Assembly (NCBI GenBank): GCA_937873495.1
Contig: CALMXZ010000005.1
Location: forward strand, 1 to 64,000
Direction of reading: 5' to 3'
From: an uncultured Trueperaceae bacterium
GTDB lineage: Bacteria; Deinococcota; Deinococci; Deinococcales; Trueperaceae
Length of the DNA: 64,000 nt
Shown: piece after piece, positions 15,733 to 17,670 of the stretch
Layout: each line of letters opens with the position of its first letter
Position numbering within the stretch: position 1 is the stretch's first letter
The notes under the pieces: model-generated
Databases searched by the model: none
What the model was told of the DNA's origin: nothing
Seen by the model: only the letters and a program-made list of their open reading frames with translations
Position numbers and translations under genes: made by a program

Positions 15733-16134
15733 TCATGGCTGCTCCCGCCAGTTCAGGAACAGCTCCCGCATCTCGTCGGGCACGCGCACCGGCCGGCCGG
15801 CCGCGTAATCGAACGTGACGGCGACCGCCTCGACCTCGGCCGCGACCTCGGTCGCGCCTTCTGCCCCGGCGAGCACGACCTGCCGCATGGTCACGCTGCT
15901 GTTGCCGACCCGCTCCACCCACGTCTCGACGCTCACGCGCTCCCCCAGCCGCACCTGGCGCCGGTAATCGAGCGCCAGGCGCGCCAGGATGAAACCGCCA
16001 GGCGCTATGCCGAGCCCACGCATGAACTCGACGCGCCCCAACTCGGCGTAAGTGGCGTAGACGGCGTTGTTGATGTGACCAAGGGCGTCGGTGTCGGCGA
16101 ACCTGACCTGGATTTCCGTGCGGTGGCGCTTCAC
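15733..16134 (-). CDS. Acyl-CoA thioesterase, hotdog fold (YbgC/FadM-like)
   Basis: The 133-residue protein carries RFADTDALGHINNAVYATY at about residues 11-29, the 4-hydroxybenzoyl-CoA thioesterase signature with its catalytic aspartate. These enzymes hydrolyse acyl-CoA thioesters in the cytoplasm. The GTG start overlaps the fpg stop, so it is translated together with fpg. The acyl substrate cannot be told. Confidence 0.85.
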   Translation of the reverse strand: MKRHRTEIQVRFADTDALGHINNAVYATYAELGRVEFMRGLGIAPGGFILARLALDYRRQVRLGERVSVETWVERVGNSSVTMRQVVLAGAEGATEVAAEVEAVAVTFDYAAGRPVRVPDEMRELFLNWREQP

Positions 16135-16985
16135 TCGCCGGCCTTTCCGCCGCGCGCTTCACGGGGCGCCGGCTGGCACGTCGGGCAGTGCGTCGTACCC
16201 CGCTGCCCGACGACGGAGCGCTCCATCTGCGTGCCGCAGCGGGGGCAGGCCTCGCCGGCGCGGCCGTAGGCGAGGAGCTGCCGCGCGTACTCGCCCGTCC
16301 CGCCGCGCACCGTGCGGTAGTCGGACAACGTCGTGCCCTGGGCGGCGACGGCCGCCGCGAGCACCTCGCGGATGGCGGCGTGCAGGGCGGCGACCCGGTC
16401 GTCGCCCAACCGGGCGGCCGGGGTGAGTGGATGCACGCCGGCGCGCCACAACGCCTCGTCGGCGTAGATGTTGCCGACGCCGGCCACGGGCCGCTGGCTC
16501 AGCAGGTAGGTCTTGACGGGCATGGTGGAGCGCGCGCAGGCCGCCGCCAGGCCTGCCGGCGTGAAGTCGTCGCCCAGCGGCTCCGGTCCGAGGGCGGCGA
16601 GGGTGGGCAGGGTCGGGTAGCGGCCGGCGTCGACGACGAGGAAGCGCCCGAAGCGCCGCGGGTCGATGAAGTAGAGCGTGCCAGGGTCGCCGCCCGAGAG
16701 CTCGACCTTGACGCGCAGGTGAGTGGAGGCGCGCGCGTCCGGCGCGTGGTCGGCGATCACGCCCGTCATGCCGAGGTGCGCCACGAGCTCGAGGCCGCCG
16801 CTCAGCGGCATGAGGAGGAACTTGCCGCGCCGCCCGACGCCTTCGATGAGCCTGCCCGCGAGACGCTCGAGACCGGCGTACTTGGGCCCTGCCGGCGCGA
16901 GCAGGTCGACGGACCGGACCTCGCGCCCCGTCAGCCACGGGGCCAGCTCGCGCCGCACGGTCTCGACCTCAGGTAGTTCTGGGAT
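16131..16985 (-). CDS. mutM: Formamidopyrimidine-DNA glycosylase, apparent ATC start
   Basis: This base-excision enzyme removes oxidised purines and cuts the abasic site. The mature N-terminus must be proline, which attacks the sugar. Here PELPEVETVRR is encoded directly after an ATC codon at 16985-16983, with no ATG, GTG or TTG at that place. A strong GGGGAGGA lies six bases upstream of the ATC, so ATC appears to be the start, giving 284 residues. Starting at the next GTG (16958) would delete the catalytic PE. RRGKFLL carries the conserved lysine, and the C-terminal CPRC...CPTC zinc finger is complete. It overlaps hisA by 17 bases and the thioesterase by 4. Confidence 0.9.
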   Translation of the reverse strand: MPELPEVETVRRELAPWLTGREVRSVDLLAPAGPKYAGLERLAGRLIEGVGRRGKFLLMPLSGGLELVAHLGMTGVIADHAPDARASTHLRVKVELSGGDPGTLYFIDPRRFGRFLVVDAGRYPTLPTLAALGPEPLGDDFTPAGLAAACARSTMPVKTYLLSQRPVAGVGNIYADEALWRAGVHPLTPAARLGDDRVAALHAAIREVLAAAVAAQGTTLSDYRTVRGGTGEYARQLLAYGRAGEACPRCGTQMERSVVGQRGTTHCPTCQPAPREARGGKAGE

Positions 16986-17670
16986 AGCCGATCCTCCCCT
17001 CGTACAGGGCGCGACCTACGATCGCTCCCTGCAGCCCGAGGCGTTCGTACGCAGCCAGGTCGGCGTCCGTGCCCACCCCGCCGCCCGCCATGAGCGTGCC
17101 GGGGAACGCGTCGCGCATGCGCGCCACCGGCTCCTCGTCGACGCCGCGCATGGTGCCGTCGCGGGAGATGTCCGTGTAGATCACGTGCGTCACGCCGCGA
17201 GCGGCCACCCGGCCGGCGAGCTCGACGGCGTCGAGCTCCGTCGTCTCGGCCCAACCGCGCACGGCGACGCGGCCGCCGCGCGCGTCTATCGAGACGCACA
17301 CGCGCTCCGGGCCGAACTCCTCGAGGAGGGTGCTCACCACGTCGGGGTCGGTGATCGCGACCGTGCCGAGCACCACGCGCTCCAGTACCGCGAGCCACCT
17401 GCGCCCGGCCTCCACGCTCCTGACGCCGCCGCCCAGCTCGACCTTGGCGGCGACCCCGGCGGCGAGGCGGGCGACCGCCTGCGCGTTCTGGCCGCTGCCG
17501 AGCGTGGCGTCGAGGTCGACGACGTGCAGCCACGCGGCGCCCAGGGCGTCCCACTTCCGAGCGGCCTCGAGCGGATCGGAGAAGTAGACGGTCTCGCGAT
17601 CAGGGTCGCCCTCGAAGAGCCGCACCGCGCGGCCTTGCTGGATGTCGATGCAGGGAACGACGAGGAACAT
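16969..17670 (-). CDS. hisA: Phosphoribosylformimino-AICAR ribotide isomerase
   Basis: The 233-residue beta/alpha barrel catalyses the fourth step of histidine biosynthesis. CIDIQQGRAVRL near the N-terminus contains the catalytic aspartate, YTDISRDGT carries the second one, and MAGGGV and GAIVGRALYEG are phosphate-binding loops. The HisF signatures are absent, so HisA is preferred. No other his gene is in the window. It overlaps the fpg start by 17 bases and supplies that gene's ribosome-binding site within its own coding sequence. Confidence 0.93.
   Translation of the reverse strand: MFLVVPCIDIQQGRAVRLFEGDPDRETVYFSDPLEAARKWDALGAAWLHVVDLDATLGSGQNAQAVARLAAGVAAKVELGGGVRSVEAGRRWLAVLERVVLGTVAITDPDVVSTLLEEFGPERVCVSIDARGGRVAVRGWAETTELDAVELAGRVAARGVTHVIYTDISRDGTMRGVDEEPVARMRDAFPGTLMAGGGVGTDADLAAYERLGLQGAIVGRALYEGRIGYPRTT

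Follow-up and report, generated by a model that had tools for sequence, protein, structure and literature searches.

How does translation of fpg (mutM) begin when the codon directly in front of its catalytic proline is ATC? The N-terminal proline of Fpg is the nucleophile and attacks the lesion with its free N-terminus, as stated in the accessible part of PMC5422863. Because the proline acts as the nucleophile, it must be N-terminal, and fpg can thus serve, whatever the genome, as a ruler for its own true start. According to the accessible text of PMC5472188, few non-canonical start codons of bacteria have been characterised experimentally; genome annotation mostly assumes that such starts do not occur. 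Comparison of relatives fixes such a start across a family, and the chemistry of the enzyme fixes which codon it is. Here, we follow up an fpg gene on the minus strand of a window of 64,000 nucleotides (the whole stretch of DNA that was analysed) from a genome of the family Trueperaceae, referred to as G000 and f1, respectively.

The fpg locus and its start codon

Read from ATC, fpg occupies positions 16131..16985 of the minus strand (284 codons plus stop), as delimited by family models and an alignment to the T. thermophilus MutM 1ee8. The product is a sound Fpg/MutM: it reaches 268.7 bits with the curated model TIGR00577 (cut-off 203.3), exceeds the cut-off of PRK01103 and contains the Pfam domains Fapy_DNA_glyco, H2TH and zf-FPG, the latter two covering the H2TH and zinc-finger elements of the enzyme. 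The minus strand reads ...GAGGGGAGGATCGGCT ATC CCA GAA CTA CCT GAG GTC GAG ACC GTG CGG..., and the proline codon CCA (16982-16980) directly follows the ATC, the proposed start codon AUC (16983..16985, minus strand). The Shine-Dalgarno (SD)-like stretch GGGGAGGA is located at 16992..16999 of the same strand, six nucleotides before the AUC, and its predicted duplex has an energy of -11.2 kcal/mol. Upstream, the fpg frame runs TAG GTC GCG CCC TGT ACG AGG GGA GGA TCG GCT; the in-frame TAG (17016..17018, minus strand) bounds the possible starts, and neither ATG, GTG nor TTG occurs in this frame between the ATC and the TAG 11 codons upstream, whereby an upstream canonical start is rejected. A caller that accepts only ATG, GTG and TTG takes the GTG at 16956..16958 (minus strand) as start and drops PELPEVET.

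The sequence-only reading had placed the ATC directly before the PELPEVE codons, with the SD-like stretch six bases upstream and no usable ATG, GTG or TTG, and had predicted that automatic annotation would begin at GTG 16958 and lose the catalytic residues. All of this was confirmed, including the behaviour of a mechanical ORF caller, which does begin at that GTG. The accompanying claim that the enzyme needs Pro directly after the initiator likewise agrees with the alignment, in which residue 2 (Pro) corresponds to residue 1 of mature 1ee8. The catalytic Pro-Glu follows the initiator directly only if AUC is the start. Initiation at this AUC would introduce fMet, whose subsequent removal would expose Pro-1. 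These observations support ATC as the sole reading that keeps the catalytic proline N-terminal, and AUC is, on sequence grounds, almost certainly the start of fpg. In these genomes, Fpg is probably predicted without its catalytic residues.

The gene is part of a tightly packed minus-strand run, hisA-fpg-thioesterase. The upstream gene hisA (16969..17670, minus strand; Pfam His_biosynth, 5e-72) overlaps fpg with its last codons, and the stop codon of fpg shares the four nucleotides GTGA (16134-16131) with the start of the downstream thioesterase gene (15733..16134, minus strand; Pfam 4HBT_2). The start of fpg therefore lies within the end of the preceding gene, at the proximity to its stop that is typical of coupled gene pairs.

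Conservation of the ATC start in Trueperaceae

A protein search, in which no particular start was required, gave an fpg match for 57 of the 61 genomes. Among the 37 Trueperaceae genomes covered by this search, the N-terminus was readable in 34, of which 30 have ATC and four have ATG, with no other codon; two of the remaining three genomes gave no match and one ends before the fpg N-terminus. All 34 readable N-termini preserve PELPEVET or PELPEVETI/V, with synonymous variation. A pattern search of 39 Trueperaceae genomes found the motif in 36 (32 ATC, 4 ATG). The 32 ATC genomes span 14 genera and differ by synonymous changes around the start, and three of them (G001, G017 and G021) are single-contig genomes. 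As the same codon occurs in 32 of the 36 family genomes with the motif, the ATC can be regarded as real and not as the product of chance or error. Taken together, fpg of this family shows the features of a candidate AUH-start gene: no usable ATG, GTG or TTG, an AUH codon at an SD-matched position and conservation in relatives. The sequence-only reading had proposed to compare the start across relatives and had considered ATG in them a sign of an assembly error; this outcome did not occur, and the four relatives with ATG are those that have lost the overlap with hisA.

Outside the family, ATC was found at the fpg start in none of the 67 matched Deinococcota genomes, all of which have ATG or GTG (phylum set: 111 genomes searched, 103 matched); one of these genomes contains a second match elsewhere, with TTC. 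An fpg tree with 48 rows unites the Trueperaceae in a single group and requires four changes for ATC. Of the four ATG rows, three (G006, G022 and G012) are placed among ATC rows, and G019 is located at an open fork. The simplest account is a single gain of ATC with subsequent losses, in a tree whose inner forks are not all firm.

An overlap with hisA that locks the codon

The overlap with hisA had not been noticed in the sequence-only reading, and it probably accounts for ATC in place of ATG at this position. Of the 32 ATC genomes, 31 have hisA as the upstream frame. The hisA product ends in a tail of the form ...YEG-x-x-x-Y-P..., in which the ATC is read as (T)AT-C(CC). The two genes overlap by 17 nt in most genomes, by 8 nt in genus g14 and by 23 nt in g10. 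In the window, the overlap comprises the 17 nt at 16969..16985 (minus strand), where the hisA frame (T)AT-CCC-AGA-ACT-ACC-TGA encodes Y P R T T stop; the TGA falls within the fpg codons CCT GAG, and GGGGAGGA of fpg overlaps the hisA codons for Glu-Gly-Arg.

Two codons of the HisA tail depart from the usage in the rest of the gene. All 31 overlapping genomes use TAT for the tyrosine that supplies the AT. These rows were gathered by the ATC pattern, which itself forces AT; the uniformity is not an artefact of this selection, because the unconditioned search shows no overlapping genome with another codon. The tyrosine of YEG, located six codons upstream and used as a control, is encoded by TAC in 29 and by TAT in two of the 31 genomes, and the pooled hisA bodies contain 21 TAT and 83 TAC. 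Similarly, all 31 genomes encode the glycine inside the SD-like stretch by GGG or GGA, compared to 191 GGR and 494 GGY in the hisA bodies. Since P values at the level of rows treat related genomes as independent, both codons were also counted by genus (14/14), which gives p = 2e-10 for TAT and 2e-8 for GGR.

The Tyr/Phe-Pro tail of HisA is kept in all four ATG genomes. Its retention without the overlap indicates that the proline is a feature of HisA itself and that it dictates the C of ATC: the start is AUC and not AUG because the Tyr-Pro of HisA is read from T-AU|C-CC, and AUG would turn the HisA proline into alanine. Judging from the aligned genes, the AUC start is locked between HisA Tyr-Pro and the proline of Fpg across the span of the family, an example of how overlapping genes can hold a start codon in an inferior form. 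Possibly HisA is the sole constraint on the C of ATC, which would then have no regulatory meaning for fpg. The gene pair itself looks older than the overlap, as suggested by the outgroup family f3, in which a hisA-like tail with YEG precedes fpg in several cases and, as assessed by eye, the ATG or GTG of fpg touches the stop or comes shortly behind it (L043, L050, L051).

Genomes in which the overlap is broken

None of the four ATG genomes has a hisA/fpg overlap. In G019, hisA ends with ...VRFPRSA*, followed by a spacer and then the ATG of fpg; in G012, another gene separates hisA from fpg; and in G006 and G022, fpg is located elsewhere. A further genome, G002, belongs to the genus of the window and contains no hisA before fpg, its best HisA match (39% identity) being encoded elsewhere in the genome. 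In this one draft genome, fpg keeps ATC, with GAGGTG four bases upstream. The family thus offers natural replicates in which the overlap is kept, in which it is broken and in which hisA has been lost.

In G002 (G002:C133, before 14439; L006/L252), fpg is overlapped by a 29-codon ORF, ATG TGG AAG ... CGC CAT CCC CGA GCT GCC TGA, which ends with ...VRHPRAA* at the TGA that is used by hisA in other genomes. By its sequence, the ORF resembles a remnant of the hisA tail that would preserve coupling. A TATAGT, resembling the consensus and nothing further, is found just before its ATG; the ORF is possibly leaderless.

AUH starts of fpg in other lineages

A scan for ATH followed by PELPEVE, with one genome per species, yielded at least 119 stretches, and 80 loci among the matches listed were examined. 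Thirteen of these are in records titled Truepera or Trueperaceae. Among the other 67 listed loci, at least 29 possess an open frame of 150 aa or more without ATG, GTG or TTG back to the in-frame stop, a set that includes L120, which lacks a canonical start over 61 codons, and whose members were not all individually confirmed as fpg. Many of the remaining listed loci are chance matches in other proteins.

In the Bacteriovoracaceae, fpg has an AUH start in 13 of 77 matched genomes (ATT 10, ATC 3; L178-L189 and L192), from a search of 115 genomes whose centre was chosen for its ATT. Twelve of the 13 genes are without any in-frame canonical start. Most of them are intergenic, several have a clear SD, and the previous gene is 77-98 nt away where it could be seen; in L184, a 105-codon frame runs into fpg. 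These AUH starts without a close upstream gene indicate that coupling is unnecessary for AUH starts in general. The pattern MCGIVG, which we take to mark enzymes of the GlmS/AsnB type whose catalytic residue adjoins the initiator, was used as a control and gave 45 rows in 37 of the 115 Bacteriovoracaceae genomes: 42 ATG, one GTG, one TTT, which was taken as a chance match, and one ATC, which is a chance match in another protein. A general habit of using AUH in Bacteriovoracaceae is rejected on the basis of this control. The comparison of 13 of 77 AUH fpg genomes with 0 of 43 control rows gives p = 0.004 (Fisher), for a weak control in which the genome sets overlap only partly and expression levels may differ.

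In a gammaproteobacterial family (120 genomes searched around a chosen centre), mutM has an AUH start in seven of 98 matched genomes (ATC 2, ATT 2, ATA 3), and these starts are located 0-3 nt behind the stop of an L33-like (rpmG) frame, an identity that was established by Pfam for one tail and by eye for the others, which look alike. Together with eight listed loci of the scan, this amounts to 15 AUH rows behind an L33 stop, 12 of them distinct, from two neighbouring clades (L201, L229-L234, L062, L072, L097, L113, L116, L121, L124 and L128); it is conceivable that the two clades share one origin. The third base varies between C, T and A, and none of the 15 AUH rows has G. Other genes can also precede fpg with an AUH start. 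In records titled Yanofskybacteria, Moorella and Bacillota, ATT or ATA adjoins a polA-like stop at 1 nt (L071, L096) or 3 nt (L092) or overlaps the polA-like gene by 8 nt (L070), and grpE-like stops precede fpg in L078 and L107.

An even draw of Pseudomonadota contained the motif in 372 of 398 genomes, and besides the chosen centre ATH was found in none of 371 (upper bound 0.8%). AUH starts of fpg as a general bacterial habit are therefore rejected. The statement of the sequence-only reading that AUC and AUU starts are rare outside infC thus holds for most bacteria, as illustrated by these Pseudomonadota, but has to be amended for fpg, which repeatedly hosts AUH in several lineages. In Acetobacteraceae/Roseococcus (L089, L120, L127 and L138), a AGAAAGAGGAGG(C/T)CGCC-like stretch with a strong SD is followed by ATC and PELPEVETV.

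Initiation at AUC and alternative explanations

Pairing of the 17 nt upstream of the start was computed against what we take to be the anti-SD sequence. The mean energy of the predicted duplex is -7.85 kcal/mol at ATC sites and -3.33 kcal/mol in 3157 control windows, and at the median ATC site, 5.6% of the control windows from that locus are equally strong. Some genomes have a weak SD (-5.3 to -5.6 kcal/mol), where up to 36% of the controls are as good; at the locus in the window, no in-frame upstream control window reaches the value of the fpg SD.

The reading that we favour, with a probability of roughly 0.8, is that of a real and conserved AUC start of low efficiency, which would be fed by ribosomes that end hisA and is probably throttled by IF3. 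The initiator tRNA would read AUC weakly, given the mismatch at the third base, and initiation would be fed by the GAGG/GGAGG element. Ribosomes finishing hisA 5-20 nt downstream could move back to the SD and initiate at AUC, either by coupling or by termination-reinitiation. As IF3 disfavours non-canonical starts, the output of fpg would be held low, and the histidine-biosynthesis message would yield a small, IF3-sensitive amount of the glycosylase. We consider it somewhat probable that translational coupling to hisA matters, and we see an even chance that IF3 meters the AUC-started fpg.

The window and most of its relatives are draft assemblies, which would be compatible with a sequencing or assembly error that conceals a true ATG; however, this is rejected, since 32 genomes from 14 genera share the ATC amid synonymous changes and three of these genomes are single-contig; its probability is negligible. 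A start at GTG 16958, or a decaying gene without the catalytic N-terminus, would make use of the only canonical start nearby, but is scarcely credible for a protein that passes TIGR00577 at full length and whose PELPEVET(I/V) is maintained under synonymous variation in the unconditioned set. The overlapping frames might also permit slipping, so that Fpg would be made as a HisA-Fpg frameshift fusion, or translation might begin at a non-canonical codon further upstream. Either product would bury the proline whose free N-terminus attacks the lesion (accessible part of PMC5422863), the in-frame stop is 11 codons upstream, and fpg of G002 is not preceded by hisA. The fusion is rejected on enzyme chemistry and G002, and this pair of explanations is highly improbable.

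A more serious contender is that the AUC start is real but without regulatory function: fpg would have moved into the end of hisA, where Tyr-Pro forbids AUG, and the weak start is tolerated as a frozen accident. In line with this, the HisA proline is kept even where fpg lies elsewhere, C is the only third base at the overlapped starts of the family, and genomes with a broken overlap moved to ATG in four of five cases. However, G002 retains ATC although it is freed of hisA, AUH recurs in unrelated fpg genes without such an overlapping frame, and the third base of the gammaproteobacterial starts wanders between C, T and A with no G in 15 rows. We rate this explanation at somewhat less than even odds. 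Both it and the favoured reading of a throttled AUC start include the claim that AUC is the start, and our confidences in the two are not mutually exclusive.

Relation to known systems

AUH starts are a known kind; as far as literature searches tell, the new elements are the gene, its conservation across a family and the lock by the overlap. No AUH start of fpg or mutM was found reported in the titles and abstracts of the openly licensed literature searched. Deinococcus, which belongs to the same phylum as Trueperaceae, resembles the present case in having non-canonical starts: D. deserti is said to use non-canonical initiation codons, seen there by proteomics in work attributed to Baudet in 2010. 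An ATT start was found in D. deserti, according to the accessible part of PMC5559785.

Several features of fpg are shared with sigR of the Streptomyces oxidative stress response, whose GTC start is repressed by IF3, as shown by experiment (accessible part of PMC5472188). Both are oxidative-stress genes with a non-canonical start that is conserved in one bacterial group and misannotated. However, sigR uses GTC and not AUC and is the upstream gene of its pair, and the effect of IF3 is a proposal for fpg. Overlapping cistrons of E. coli resemble hisA/fpg in that the start is located near or over the upstream stop; as described in the accessible part of PMC2268962, re-initiation next to or overlapping a stop drops with excess IF3, and less so with an SD. 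Unlike fpg, this work used a canonical start in a reporter, and AUC is not covered in that part of the source.

The closest parallel is infC, which has AUU or AUC, is autoregulated and shares with fpg an AUH start, a strong SD and the failure of callers restricted to canonical starts. In contrast to infC, fpg is not the IF3 gene, which leaves no autoregulatory loop, and its start lies inside the preceding gene. It is tempting to speculate that fpg/mutM joins infC as a second class of genes that are repeatedly placed under AUH, often fed by ribosomes ending hisA, rpmG, polA or grpE, with IF3 metering a repair enzyme; we regard this generalisation as tentative and rather doubtful at present. The start of infC is ATT in E. 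coli and ATC in Streptomyces (accessible part of PMC5472188). In 13 family genomes searched, 12 infC loci were read, and their SD-matched start is ATT in six and ATA in six, which, judged by sequence, fits the known infC pattern. In the genome of the window (G000:C12, around 212710; L213), infC has GGAGGTGGAGTCC, followed by ATT TCG AAA GAG, and appears to start at AUU.
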